Positions 39,867 to 46,202 of a stretch of 64,000 bases of DNA are shown piece after piece. Source of the stretch: Candidatus Halobonum tyrrellensis G22 (GTDB lineage Archaea > Halobacteriota > Halobacteria > Halobacteriales > Haloferacaceae); contig NZ_ASGZ01000005.1 in assembly GCF_000495475.1 (NCBI RefSeq), positions 124,001-188,000 on the forward strand. Reading direction: 5' to 3'. The notes under the pieces are model-generated. The model saw only the letters and a program-made list of their open reading frames with translations. It searched no databases and was not told the origin of the DNA. Each line of letters begins with the position of its first letter. The first letter of the stretch is position 1. A program made the translations under genes and the position numbers.

Positions 39867-40317
39867 ATGAGTCAGCACCGAAGCCGCATCGACATCCCGG
39901 GGATGAGCTGCGCGAACTGCTCGCAGACGGTCAGTGAGGCCGCAGAACCCCTCGACGGCGTCTCGGAGGCGAACGTCGACCTCGCCACCGACGAAGGAAC
40001 CGTCGAGTACGACCCGAACGTCGTCTCGCCGGGTGAGATCTACGCCGCGATCGAGGCGGCGGACGTGACGCTGATGCGTGACGACCCCGTCGACGTGGTG
40101 AAAGCGATCCGGATCAGCGAGGGGACGCTCGCGAAGTCCAAGCAGAACCCGTTCTGGGCGCTCGGCTACGACACCGCTCGCGTCGCTCGGGCTGCTCCAG
40201 CCGGTACTCGCGGCGAGTTCGATGGCGTCCTCCAGCGGCTCGGTGCTCACGAACAGCCTGCTGTTCCGGCGGTACGCGCTCGACCACGGCTACGAACTGC
40301 TCGGCCGACTCCGTTGA
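39867..40317 (+). pseudogene. copA: Gutted copper P-type ATPase (CopA) remnant
   Basis: The N-terminal heavy-metal domain is intact: IDIPGMSCANCSQTVSEAAE with the CxxC copper site. Immediately after VTLMRDDPVDVVKAI the sequence jumps to what is normally the C-terminal end of CopA (IRISEGTLAKSKQNPFWALG). The transmembrane helices 1-6, the CPC ion site, the DKTGT phosphorylation loop and the ATP-binding domain are all absent, roughly 550 residues. A frameshift then follows; the true CopA ending (LASLGLLQPVLAA, then NSLLFRRYALDHGYELLGRL and R-stop) is readable in another frame to 40317. The protein cannot pump copper. A short HMA-containing peptide could still be made from the intact first 75 codons. 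Confidence 0.85.
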
Positions 40318-41308: not shown

Positions 41309-43099
41309 ATGAGCCTCCGGAAGAACCTCGCCGTCGTCGTCGCCGGCCTACTCGTCGTCGTCGTCGCGGCACAACCCCTCTACGTGGTCGCGTTGACCCT
41401 GTTCGACTACGGGCACCAGCCGGGGGGAGCCTACGCGACGATGCAGACCAAGGACACGACCCGATTTCCCGCGAGCGATCCCGACGAGTTGAGCGCCGCC
41501 ACCGCTCGGGCCGCCAGACCCCCGAACGCGAACGTCTCGTACGACACCGTCGTCCGCGTGCCCGAGGGCGACTGGCGGACGGCGCTCGCGGCGTCCGGGC
41601 TTCGCGCGGCGGCCGACGCCATCGTCCTCTACGGCGACGCGCCCGTGCCGGGAGCGGGGAACGGGAGTTCCGCGGCGCGAACCGCGTCGACGGTCGAATT
41701 GTCGGGCGGAAACTCGGCAGCGATCGCGGCCCGGATCGCCACCAGGGGGAACACGAGCGACGAGGTGAGTCCGAACAACGTCGTCCTCGTCGGTAACGAA
41801 TCACCGGAGTGGGCGCTCCCCGCCGCCGCGTGGAGCGCGTACAGCGGCGACCCGATCCTCTACGTCGACCGCAACGGCGTTCCCGACGCGACGCGGCAGG
41901 CTATCGCCGAACTGAACGCGACGCACGCGTACGTCCTCGCCCCGCCGCGACTCGTCGGGCGGGACGCCCTCTCCGCGTTGGACACCGAGTGGACGCGCGT
42001 CGCCGGGTCGACGCCGCAGGACCACGCCGTCGAGATCGCGAAGTTCCGCGACGAGTCCCGCGACTTCGGCTGGGGCATCGACGACCGCGACAAGGTCGGC
42101 TACTACAACACGATGCTCGTCAACCCCGACCGACCCGAACACGCCGTCGCCAGTACGAACCTCCAGTGGGGCAAGGCCGGACCGGTGCTCCTCGTCCACG
42201 ACGACGGGACGCTCCCCGCTATCACCGAGAACTTCCTCTGGCGGACACAGTCCGGTTGGTTCTCGACGCCAGCCGAGGGACCGTTCAACCACGTGTTCGT
42301 ACTAGGGTCGCTCGACGACGTCTCGTGGGTGTCACAGACCCGGAGCGACTACGCCGTCGAGGTCACCCCGTATCGACTCCAGGGCGCGGGCATGAGCCCG
42401 CTCGACGCGCTCTCGGCGGTCTGGGCGGCGTTCAGCCTGCTCGGGGCGACGTTCGTGTACACCCACTCGCGACACCGGATCCCGGAGATGGGCGACTGGA
42501 CGAAACTGGTGTGGCCACTGTTCACCTTACTGCTCGGACCGATCGGATTGGGGTTCTACTGGTTCGCCTATCGGAGCAGGGAGACGGTCGAACGCGACGG
42601 GCGGAAGCACGTGGTCCGGCCGTACTGGCTCCAGGCGGCGTCGGCCACGGCGATGGGCGTCGGCTTCGCCGCGAGTACGATGGTCGCGGTCGCGTTCCTG
42701 CTCACCTACTTCGGGATGCCGCTCGTCGTCTTCGATGGGCCGCTGTTCGCCCTCGGGAGTTCGATGGTTCTCACCATGGCCATCGTCTACGTCGTCGCCC
42801 TGCTCGTCTCCTGGCAGGTGTTCCACGTCCCGATGTTCGAGGAGTCGATGGGTCTCGACCGAGGGGCGGCGACCCGACAGAGCCTTCTGGCTGTCGTGGT
42901 CAGCATGACGAGCGTCTCGGTCGGGATGATGACGATGATGTGGGTGCTGATGATGCTCAACCTACCGATGATGCCCGGCGACGACAACGTCCTCTGGTTC
43001 GGCGTGATGGTGTTCTCGACCCTGGTCGGGTTCCTGATCGCGTGGCCGGTGAACGGACTGCTGGTTCGGCGAAACGTCAAGCCGGGAGGTGCGCTATGA
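41309..43099 (+). CDS. Membrane protein: outside cell-wall-binding-2-like domain plus DUF4396
   Basis: A 596-residue protein. A signal anchor (LAVVVAGLLVVVVAAQPLYV, residues 7-26) leads to an outside domain of about 330 residues with alternating 'AIVLYGDA', 'NVVLVGNES', 'PILYVDRNGVP', 'AYVLAPP' strands, resembling cell wall binding repeat 2 (PF04122). The C-terminal 240 residues carry about seven helices including YWLQAASATAMGVGFAASTM and QSLLAVVVSMTSVSVGMMTM, which resembles DUF4396, a Met/His-containing membrane domain. Its stop overlaps the next gene as ATGA. The outside domain is paralogous to that next protein. Role unknown; the metal-gene setting and Met-rich helices suggest metal tolerance or envelope stress. 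Confidence 0.75.
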   Translation: MSLRKNLAVVVAGLLVVVVAAQPLYVVALTLFDYGHQPGGAYATMQTKDTTRFPASDPDELSAATARAARPPNANVSYDTVVRVPEGDWRTALAASGLRAAADAIVLYGDAPVPGAGNGSSAARTASTVELSGGNSAAIAARIATRGNTSDEVSPNNVVLVGNESPEWALPAAAWSAYSGDPILYVDRNGVPDATRQAIAELNATHAYVLAPPRLVGRDALSALDTEWTRVAGSTPQDHAVEIAKFRDESRDFGWGIDDRDKVGYYNTMLVNPDRPEHAVASTNLQWGKAGPVLLVHDDGTLPAITENFLWRTQSGWFSTPAEGPFNHVFVLGSLDDVSWVSQTRSDYAVEVTPYRLQGAGMSPLDALSAVWAAFSLLGATFVYTHSRHRIPEMGDWTKLVWPLFTLLLGPIGLGFYWFAYRSRETVERDGRKHVVRPYWLQAASATAMGVGFAASTMVAVAFLLTYFGMPLVVFDGPLFALGSSMVLTMAIVYVVALLVSWQVFHVPMFEESMGLDRGAATRQSLLAVVVSMTSVSVGMMTMMWVLMMLNLPMMPGDDNVLWFGVMVFSTLVGFLIAWPVNGLLVRRNVKPGGAL

Positions 43100-44334
43100 C
43101 CGATCAGAGTCGCCGGGAGTTCCTGCGGGACCTGGCGACGGTACCCGCCCTCGCGGGTCTCGGCGGCGCGGCGCTCTCGGTCGACAGCAACCTCTTCGCG
43201 GGCGGCGGCGGAGAGGAGTCGGGAGGGCCGGCGACCGCCGACGTCGACGAGTGGACGGCCACGACGATGACGACCCGTCTCGCCGGCGAGAACGTGTACG
43301 AGACGGCCGCCGCCTACTGCCAGAGCGTCTACACCGCGATCAACGAACACACCCGTCCCGGCGCCGTGACCCTCGTCAACGACAGCGTCCTCGAGGCGGC
43401 GCTCCCGGGCGTCGGCATGATCCACCACCCCATCGACGGTGCGGTGCTGCTCACACGGCAGGACGAACTCCCACGGGCCACCCGCGACGAGATCGAACGC
43501 GCCCACCCCGAGGGCGTCGGCATGGACGGCAACGTCCAAGTCTACCTGATCGGGGGGGAGCGGTACATCGGGGAGAGCGTTCGACGGGAGGTCGAGTCGA
43601 TGGGGATGAGCGTCCGTCGTATCCCCGGGGACGACCCCGTGCGCGTCGCGGCCAACGTCGACCAGTACGTGAGTTCGATGCACGGTAACCACGAGGACGA
43701 GGTGATCGTCGCCAGCCTCGACGCGCCACGGCGTGCCGTTCCGATTCAGTCGTGGAACGCCCACGGCGGCGACGGCTTCCTCTGGGTCGACGGCGACTCC
43801 ATCCCGGCGGAGACCGCCGAACAACTCGAAGCGCGATACGACTACGCGTACATGTACCTCCTCGGCGACGAGGACGCAATCAGTTCCGAGGTGTCACGCG
43901 ATCTCGGGGCCTACGGCCACGTCACGCGCGTCCCCGACGCCGGCGATCCCTACAGTATCAGCGCCGCGTGGGCGGGGTACAAGGACATCGGGCGCAACCA
44001 GGGCTGGTGGTTCGGCGAGTGGGCACGGAACATCGGCTGGGGGCTCGCCGACCCCGGCCACAACTTCATCTTCGCCAACCCGGACGACTGGCGGACCGCG
44101 ATCCCCGCGAGCGTCGAGAGCCACCGCGGGAAGCACGGCCCGATGCTCGCCGTCCGACGTGACGAACTCCCGACGCCCGTCGAGAACTACCTCCGGAAGT
44201 TCTTCGACCCGACCGACGCGGCACCGTACGACCGCAAGTACAACCACGGGTGGATCGCGGGGCCGCCCGAGACGATCAGCCGGGACGTCCAAGCGGAGGT
44301 CCACGGGATCCTCGAAGGGGGTGGGCCGCCGTGA
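43096..44334 (+). CDS. Tat-exported cell-wall-binding-2-like protein
   Basis: A 412-residue protein. The Tat signal (QSRREFLRDLATVPALAGLG, residues 4-23) lacks a lipobox Cys. The mature part repeats the fold of the upstream protein: 'VQVYLIGGERYIG', 'GFLWVDGDSIPAET', 'YMYLLGDEDAIS'. The final third (RNIGWGLADPGHNFIFANPD, KHGPMLAVRRDELPTPVENY) aligns with RDFGWGIDDRDKVGYYNTML and KAGPVLLVHDDGTLPAITEN of its neighbour. The gene begins with ATG overlapping the previous stop and ends overlapping the next GTG. A soluble and a membrane-fused paralogue made from one message suggests a complex. Confidence 0.8.
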   Translation: MTDQSRREFLRDLATVPALAGLGGAALSVDSNLFAGGGGEESGGPATADVDEWTATTMTTRLAGENVYETAAAYCQSVYTAINEHTRPGAVTLVNDSVLEAALPGVGMIHHPIDGAVLLTRQDELPRATRDEIERAHPEGVGMDGNVQVYLIGGERYIGESVRREVESMGMSVRRIPGDDPVRVAANVDQYVSSMHGNHEDEVIVASLDAPRRAVPIQSWNAHGGDGFLWVDGDSIPAETAEQLEARYDYAYMYLLGDEDAISSEVSRDLGAYGHVTRVPDAGDPYSISAAWAGYKDIGRNQGWWFGEWARNIGWGLADPGHNFIFANPDDWRTAIPASVESHRGKHGPMLAVRRDELPTPVENYLRKFFDPTDAAPYDRKYNHGWIAGPPETISRDVQAEVHGILEGGGPP

Positions 44335-44801
44335 GACGCGTCGTCGCTCGGTACGACGACGAGGGTGACGCGGCCGACGCCGAGGCCGACCTCCGCCAAG
44401 CCGGCCTCGACCCCGAGCGCCCCGACATCGAGAACCCCTTCTTCGACCCCTCGGCGCGGCCGCCGGAAGCGCGTGGACTGCTGTGGGGTGGGCTCGTCGG
44501 TGGAGTCGTCGGCGCGGCGATCCTGTTGGCGATGGCCGTGGACGTGCTCTGGGTCCCGCGGTTGAGCCCGATCATGTCCGCCGGCCGTCTCGCACTCGTC
44601 ACCTTCGGATTCGGTCTCGGCGCTGCCGTCGGCGGGTTCGTCGGCGGTATCTGGGGAACTCTCGGGGAACTTTCCGACCCGGAAGGCCCCCGAGTTGCCG
44701 TCAGAGTGTCCGACGCCGAAGTCGGCGACGTGAAAGAACGTCTCCGCACTCACGACGCCGTCGTCGTCGACGACGGGGCCACGTCGTACGAGACGCGTTG
44801 A
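44331..44801 (+). CDS. Small membrane protein with two-helix core
   Basis: 156 residues from a GTG that overlaps the upstream stop (GTGA). A soluble N-terminal part (VVARYDDEGDAADAEADLRQ) has the beta-alpha start seen in stress proteins that read 'ViArf.d...A..a...L...G'. Two helices follow (LWGGLVGGVVGAAILLAMAV and LALVTFGFGLGAAVGGFVGG), then a C-terminal segment VRVSDAEVGDVKERLRTHDA. The pattern recalls general-stress/DUF1269-like proteins, where a ferredoxin-like fold brackets a glycine-rich membrane hairpin. Third gene of a tightly overlapping trio. Function unknown. Confidence 0.7.
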   Translation: MRRVVARYDDEGDAADAEADLRQAGLDPERPDIENPFFDPSARPPEARGLLWGGLVGGVVGAAILLAMAVDVLWVPRLSPIMSAGRLALVTFGFGLGAAVGGFVGGIWGTLGELSDPEGPRVAVRVSDAEVGDVKERLRTHDAVVVDDGATSYETR

Positions 44802-44864: not shown

Positions 44865-46202
44865 TCAATCCATCGCGTGACCGTGTTCCCCGTGGCCCCC
44901 CTCGCCCTCACCCTCGGCGGCACCCGAGCGGTGGAGCCAGTAGAGGAACAGGAACACCCCCGTCGCGAGTACGTTCAGCACCATCTTGTAGTTCAACTCG
45001 ATCGAGATCTCGGTGATCGTGACGCTCGACGGGTCGGGAATGAACCCCAACCCCAGGAAGACGAAGTGGATGATAAAGCCCGTCACGACCGCCGAGACGA
45101 AGATCATCCCCGAGAGGATCGCCGCGAACGTCGTCCCGTAGTACTCCCGATAGGCGTCCATGATCGGCGGGACGATCAGGTCGGCGTAGATGTACGAGAG
45201 GACGGATCCGAACGGGAGACCGTTCGAGAACAACACCGCCGCGAACGGGACGTTCCCGACCGAACAGACGAACGTCGCGATCCCGATCACCGCGCCGAGG
45301 ACGGCCGTCCAGAAGACGTACACCGGGAGGCCGAACGTCTGTCCCGAGAACACCGAGGTCCACACCTGCTCGGGAATGAACCCCGCGATCAGCCCCGCGA
45401 AGACGAACCCGATCGCGATCTCGTCCCAGAGCATCCCCCACTCCTTCCACTGCTTGTCCGCGAGCGCGCGCCACCCCGACATCGAGGTGGCCTGTTCGGT
45501 GATGGTCGTGTCCGCCTCCTCGGGGTCGAAGCTGTTCTGACACGACTCCGAGCAGAAGTAGTAGGTCTGCCCGTCCACCTCGGTCGAGAAGTCGGTCTCG
45601 TCGGGGTCGACCTCCATCCCGCAGACGGGGTCTTGGACCACATCCGACCCTTCGTCTTCGATGTTCTCTCTGGCCTGTTCGACCACCTCGTCGGGGACGA
45701 CGTAGGTGAGCCCCACCGCCATCATCCCGATGAGGATGAACCCGCCGACGATATCGGCCAGAAGGAACTCCCAGCCCAACAGGATCCACATGACGGCGCC
45801 GATCTCGATGACGAGGTTGGTGGAGGCGAACATGAACGCGCCGAGGGTCGCCGCCGCCGACCCGCCCTTCTTGAAGAGGTTCTTCGCCGTGGCGATCGCC
45901 GAGTAGGAACACGACGAGGAGACGAACCCGAACAGCGAGCCGTACCCGATCTCGCGGAGGCCGTGGCCCTCCAGCAGGTCGGCGACCTGTTCGTCGGAGG
46001 TCCACGCCTCCACCCCGCCCGCGATGGCGAACCCGACGACGAGCGCCCACCACGTGATCCACGCCATCGCGGCGGTGGTCGTCACGAACTGCCGGGTGCT
46101 CTCGACGAAGAACTGTCCGAGCGGCTGGGTGGTCGTGAACACGCCGATCCCGACCGTGATCGCCGCGATGACCGACAGGATCGCGTACTCCGTTTTCTCC
46201 AT
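44865..46202 (-). CDS. ArsP/DUF318-type permease with an internal YHS metal domain
   Basis: A 445-residue membrane protein. Two permease halves (about residues 1-180 and 245-425) show paired motifs GFVSSSCSYSAIATAKNLFK and TFVCSVGNVPFAAVLFSNGL, the 'SC.....' and 'C..G..P.A..L' signatures of PF03773 permeases such as ArsP. Between them sits a cytosolic YHS/TRASH-like domain: DPVCGMEVDPDE then YYFCSESCQNSFD, with the C-x24-C-x3-C metal-binding cysteines. The tail is His/Gly-rich (GEGGHGEHGHAMD). ArsP moves organoarsenicals; YHS domains bind soft metals such as Cu(I). The fusion suggests a metal or metalloid efflux system. It converges on the envelope trio. Confidence 0.88.
   Translation of the reverse strand: MEKTEYAILSVIAAITVGIGVFTTTQPLGQFFVESTRQFVTTTAAMAWITWWALVVGFAIAGGVEAWTSDEQVADLLEGHGLREIGYGSLFGFVSSSCSYSAIATAKNLFKKGGSAAATLGAFMFASTNLVIEIGAVMWILLGWEFLLADIVGGFILIGMMAVGLTYVVPDEVVEQARENIEDEGSDVVQDPVCGMEVDPDETDFSTEVDGQTYYFCSESCQNSFDPEEADTTITEQATSMSGWRALADKQWKEWGMLWDEIAIGFVFAGLIAGFIPEQVWTSVFSGQTFGLPVYVFWTAVLGAVIGIATFVCSVGNVPFAAVLFSNGLPFGSVLSYIYADLIVPPIMDAYREYYGTTFAAILSGMIFVSAVVTGFIIHFVFLGLGFIPDPSSVTITEISIELNYKMVLNVLATGVFLFLYWLHRSGAAEGEGEGGHGEHGHAMD

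Follow-up and report, generated by a model that had tools for sequence, protein, structure and literature searches.

Three overlapping genes of Candidatus Halobonum tyrrellensis G22, here called A, B, and C, probably make up a mobile module that handles copper at the cell surface, a reading to which we assign a probability of roughly 0.55. They lie in a window of 64,000 nucleotides, which is the whole stretch of DNA that was analysed. The observed base of this reading consists of a domain and fold shared by A and B, the co-conservation and overlaps of the three genes, their copper-related neighbourhood, and a small set of conserved residues; from these sequences we infer metal binding, docking, and a direction of transport. 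The original prediction had left the genes as a surface complex of unknown purpose, which is too weak a description, as the genomic context points to copper.

Table 1. Features of the trio and its surroundings in the window
Feature	Position	Strand	Description
Broken CopA-type ATPase gene	39867..40314	+	Upstream of the trio; HMA start followed directly by the final portion
Small membrane protein with Met/Gly-rich loop	40504..40998	+	Just upstream of the trio
Gene A	41309..43099	+	596 aa; N-terminal TM anchor, exoplasmic CWB2 region, multi-TM DUF4396 domain
Outside CWB2-type region of A	41441..42367	+	aa 45-353; PF04122 and profile matches
DUF4396 domain of A	42626..43081	+	aa 440-591; PF14342, 1e-21; divergent, Met-rich type
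Met cluster of A	42905..42973	+	aa 533-555
A/B stop/start overlap, ATGA	43096..43099	+	Read from the sequence
Gene B	43096..44334	+	412 aa; Tat signal and three CWB2 repeats
His110 of B, repeat 1	43423..43425	+	Invariant in 18/18 B
His223 of B, repeat 2	43762..43764	+	Invariant in 18/18 B
His322 of B	44059..44061	+	Invariant in 18/18 B
His343 (repeat 3) and His347 of B (HxGKH)	44122..44136	+	Invariant in 18/18 B
B/C overlap, GTGA	44331..44334	+	Read from the sequence
Gene C	44331..44801	+	156 aa; two hydrophobic, Gly-rich segments
ArsP_1-family permease with YHS metal domain	44865..46202	-	Pfam/NCBIfam profiles

The three genes follow each other directly (Table 1), with exactly the coordinates and the two stop/start overlaps that had been predicted. 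The proposed fusion of A to a DUF4396 domain is borne out by the Pfam profile PF14342 (78.2 bits against a cut-off of 27), and the proposed Tat export of B by a Tat-signal model that B passes at 17.1 bits (cut-off 16.7). C had been called a stress-type membrane protein. Its membrane character stands, given its two hydrophobic segments, but 'stress-type' is a resemblance only, because C exceeds no family cut-off in Pfam and NCBIfam profile searches.

By its sequence profiles, the outside domain common to A and B belongs to CWB2 (PF04122), a known fold for surface anchoring. The two proteins find each other by BLASTP (57 bits, E 4e-13, over 243 aa) and by profile-profile comparison (probability 99.8%, E 1.4e-29, 303 columns), in agreement with the shared domain originally proposed, and the residues of the predicted GWG...NPD...K.GP.L.V...LP...EN motif occur in both, though with different spacing. 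The PF04122 cut-off of 24.9 bits is exceeded by B (37.2 bits) and A (27.6 bits), as well as by the two Bacillota B proteins that were tested; A and B of one Pontibacter locus (L087) fall slightly under it. Both profiles also match the solved CWB2 proteins SlpA, Cwp6, and Cwp8 of Clostridioides difficile, with best E-values of 8.9e-12 for B and 3.3e-10 for A. Like these proteins, B has three tandem repeats, which align pairwise with 96-98% probability. AlphaFold models of A and B, built from six-row alignments only, have a pLDDT of 38-42, and the fold assignment rests on the profiles.

The trio is kept together. Among 243 genomes of the order, B was flagged in five and is full length in four, and full-length A occurs in the same four; PF04122 rises above its cut-off only in these four genomes of the sample, and DUF4396 is present in 62 of the 243. 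A wider search of the order flagged 10 of 392 genomes, nine of which were counted, and a phylum-wide search flagged two of 246, namely that of the window itself and G495, a genome outside the order that encodes an A-B pair. There, A matches DUF4396, B matches no Pfam family, the overlap is unlike that of the trio, and C was not found beside the pair. The G495 locus (L123, 8497-11651) belongs to a non-haloarchaeal member of the same phylum with a GC content of 44%, and its B-A pair sits beside PRC-barrel genes and a symporter gene. Further copies of the trio occur in Halosimplex aquaticum and Haloarcula amylovorans, and plasmid-borne copies in Halomicrobium urmianum, Halobaculum roseum, and, twice, Pontibacter actiniarum (Bacteroidota). 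This survey covered one archaeal phylum, a plasmid collection, and one scan of close relatives in a species genome collection; the range seen in bacteria is therefore a minimum. Two candidates were left out of the trio count: a distant sequence of 84 aa with a stop (G047) and a distant one (29%) on a 3.7-kb contig (G345). One further locus (L117) duplicates another on the same plasmid (L085) and was counted once.

All 13 haloarchaeal loci (about 12 independent ones, because L005 and L086 are near-identical) have the full trio with 4-nt overlaps at both junctions; in Pontibacter, the A-B junction has this overlap in both loci and the B-C junction in one of the two. The tandem arrangement of a free and an anchored paralogue is thus maintained as a set in the 13 haloarchaeal and the two Pontibacter loci. 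Pairwise distances among A, B, and C proteins are correlated (r 0.97, 0.91, and 0.87, each reached in none of 2000 permutations). The B proteins of Haloarcula and Halobaculum are 100% identical despite the placement of these genera in different families, and one genome (G265) has two copies that are 62% alike. The trio moves as one unit. A search for it in other genomes had been set beforehand as one of two tests that could refute the original prediction; the genes turned out to be co-conserved, and the prediction was not refuted.

The neighbours of the trio point to copper. A copper marker (CopA, CopZ, or Csp) lies near each of the 13 haloarchaeal trio loci, in the window via the broken CopA only, and a Csp-type gene is found directly upstream in 9 of them. 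None of a modest set of 20 control stretches, each 100 kb away on DUF4396-bearing contigs, has any such marker (Fisher 2e-9), a contrast that is somewhat favourable because the marker queries (CopA, CopZ, Csp, multicopper oxidase (MCO), and regulator) were at least partly drawn from trio loci and the controls come from DUF4396 genomes. Among the bacterial copies, one Pontibacter trio adjoins Csp, MCO, and CopA genes; no copper marker was found within the stretches examined around the other Pontibacter trio (L087) and the G495 pair. B also occurs without A or C. Four Bacillota plasmids carry such a lone B in the vicinity of metal-exporting ATPases: in Alkalihalophilus it lies directly 3′ of copZ-copA; in Paenibacillus cellulositrophicus its neighbours are genes for a heavy-metal ATPase and for a regulator of the ArsR/SmtB type; in Paenibacillus Cedars, MCO, Csp, and metal ATPase genes are no more than about 10 kb away; and in Geobacillus a CopA-like gene is nearby.

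In the window itself, the copper-related neighbour that had been predicted is real, but it is a remnant of CopA that lacks about 700 aa and is also frameshifted. The arsenic-related neighbour, in turn, is the ArsP_1/YHS permease; its best NCBIfam match is a Cu/Zn efflux model, below cut-off, so the arsenic assignment is not supported. Elsewhere in this genome, CopA, CopZ, and a stand-alone DUF4396 gene lie together on another contig (L051). A homologue of the small membrane protein just upstream of the trio adjoins DUF4396 and CopR-like genes at another locus (L152). The trio has the same neighbours as known copper-resistance islands (CopA, CopZ, Csp); the trio itself was not found in the literature searched on DUF4396, on CWB2/PF04122, and on cell wall binding with copper. 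Counting against the copper reading, mobile resistance islands collect unrelated genes.

The residues conserved in B point in the same direction as its neighbours. We compared 18 B proteins (13 haloarchaeal, two from Pontibacter, one from G495, and two from Bacillota). Apart from the start, the only invariant His, Met, or Cys columns are H110, H223, H322, H343, and H347, and three of these (H110, H223, and H343) occupy, to within one residue, the equivalent loop of the three CWB2 repeats. None of the five was seen at the aligned places of SlpA, or in the aligned repeats of CWB2 proteins from Clostridioides sp. and Embleya. Bacterial B proteins have a lipobox-like Cys, read from their sequences, and we take them to be lipoproteins; those of Bacillota also contain Met/His-rich stretches. 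B differs from SlpA, Cwp6, and Cwp8 in its five His, in its location in copper loci, and in its Tat or lipoprotein signals in place of a reliance on wall polymer. In C. difficile, the three CWB2 repeats of SlpA build a pseudo-threefold prism to whose core each contributes one helix (PMC8881574), which makes a shared threefold site in B possible.

These observations bear on the first alternative, in which the trio is a surface-anchoring or S-layer-associated set whose CWB2 domains attach to a glycan of the surface or tile with one another, with the copper genes as mere fellow travellers on mobile islands. CWB2 is indeed an S-layer anchoring fold, in C. difficile it anchors via PSII (PMC8881574), and several trio loci are on plasmids. 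Nevertheless, we consider this alternative unlikely: close copper neighbours recur across haloarchaea, Bacteroidota, and Bacillota in differing combinations (Csp, CopA-CopZ, MCO), the invariant His are not seen at the aligned places of SlpA or in the aligned repeats of the Clostridioides sp. and Embleya proteins, PF04122 is confined to the trio genomes of the order sample, and B as an apparent lipoprotein in bacteria would not need to bind the wall.

The membrane domain of A departs from its own family as well. It scores above the DUF4396 cut-off, but it differs from other DUF4396 proteins in being fused to CWB2, in having a Met cluster, and in lacking two family motifs. These motifs, HC..GC...E and E..SI..ME......D, are present in all 33 stand-alone haloarchaeal DUF4396 proteins examined and in none of six aligned A rows, placing A outside the canonical haloarchaeal subtype. 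Across the two motif segments (34 and 25 residues), four of the six A rows have no H, C, D, or E at all, and the Pontibacter rows have one His each, outside the motif. Six Met residues are invariant in this alignment (M533, M540, M541, M549, M554, and M555), and a 50-residue stretch of A has 8-10 Met in 15 trio loci and four in the more distant A of G495. A residue-level equation of a Cys with M449 was dropped, as the register differs by five residues in a second DUF4396 alignment; the absence of both motifs from the six A rows holds in either register.

Intermediates between the two types exist in Hymenobacter and Deinococcus, where DUF4396 proteins combine an HC motif with Met-rich helices. 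Two of these, from Hymenobacter plasmids (L176, 7042-8004, and L177, 6962-7939), are encoded in CopA-cupredoxin-DUF305 clusters and also bear a Met/His-rich tail; around the Deinococcus aetherius gene, no copper gene was found within the stretch examined. Among the stand-alone haloarchaeal DUF4396 loci, 12 of 33 have a copper marker (0/20 controls, Fisher 0.002), hinting that the whole family may handle copper. Such a stand-alone gene adjoins Csp and CopZ genes in four loci (L130, L132, L140, and L154) and is near CopA-CopZ in L051.

A second alternative keeps the metal but changes its identity or use: the trio would serve another soft metal (silver or mercury), or would act in redox chemistry or sensing and not in copper handling as such. 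Met-rich Cu(I) sites suit Ag(I) as well, no copper neighbour was seen at the non-haloarchaeal G495 pair, and the trio of the window lies next to the ArsP_1/YHS permease. Against this, most loci specifically have CopA, CopZ, Csp, or multicopper oxidase neighbours, and we regard such a role as rather improbable. That A and B merely resemble each other by chance, or that B is an annotation artefact, can be dismissed despite the modest PF04122 scores, refuted as it is by the BLASTP and profile matches and by reading frames and overlaps conserved at 13 of 13 loci.

The copper-handling module that we favour might operate as follows. B would be exported as a protein with the CWB2 trimer fold, by the Tat route in haloarchaea and apparently as a lipoprotein in bacteria, and its conserved His (one in each CWB2 repeat and two others) could bind copper outside the membrane. 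The second CWB2 domain, in A and without those His, would then dock B, and the DUF4396 part of A, in which the Met cluster replaces the His/Cys/Glu/Asp motifs of the family, would pass or sense Cu(I), with C as a small Gly-rich membrane partner. Inside the cell, the neighbouring gene products would take over, with CopA exporting, CopZ carrying, and Csp storing copper. A more specific version, which is possible but which we hold only tentatively, is that the three repeat His of B come together close to the pseudo-threefold axis and make up a His3 copper site, from which copper would be handed to a Met-lined DUF4396 channel in A, whose metal-free CWB2 copy would act as a docking plate.

A comparable layout is found in the YcnI/YcnJ and CopC/CopD copper uptake systems, described for Bacillus subtilis (PMC12362106), in which a separate outside copper protein and a membrane protein with a fused outside domain are encoded in one operon. 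The likeness to B and A is one of layout and not of descent: the folds differ, and neither A nor B matches the Pfam families CopC, CopD, or DUF1775 at E<1.

If the copper reading is correct, DUF4396, an uncharacterised family of membrane proteins, would gain a purpose and the S-layer anchoring fold a new use, and a cross-domain mobile copper module would join those already known. If the His3 site and the Met-lined channel are also as proposed, this would be a form of copper transport or sequestration that is unrelated to CopC/CopD, Cus, and Ctr and has spread between archaea and bacteria. With the exact residues named (H110, H223, H343, H322, and H347 of B and the Met cluster of A), the idea is testable.
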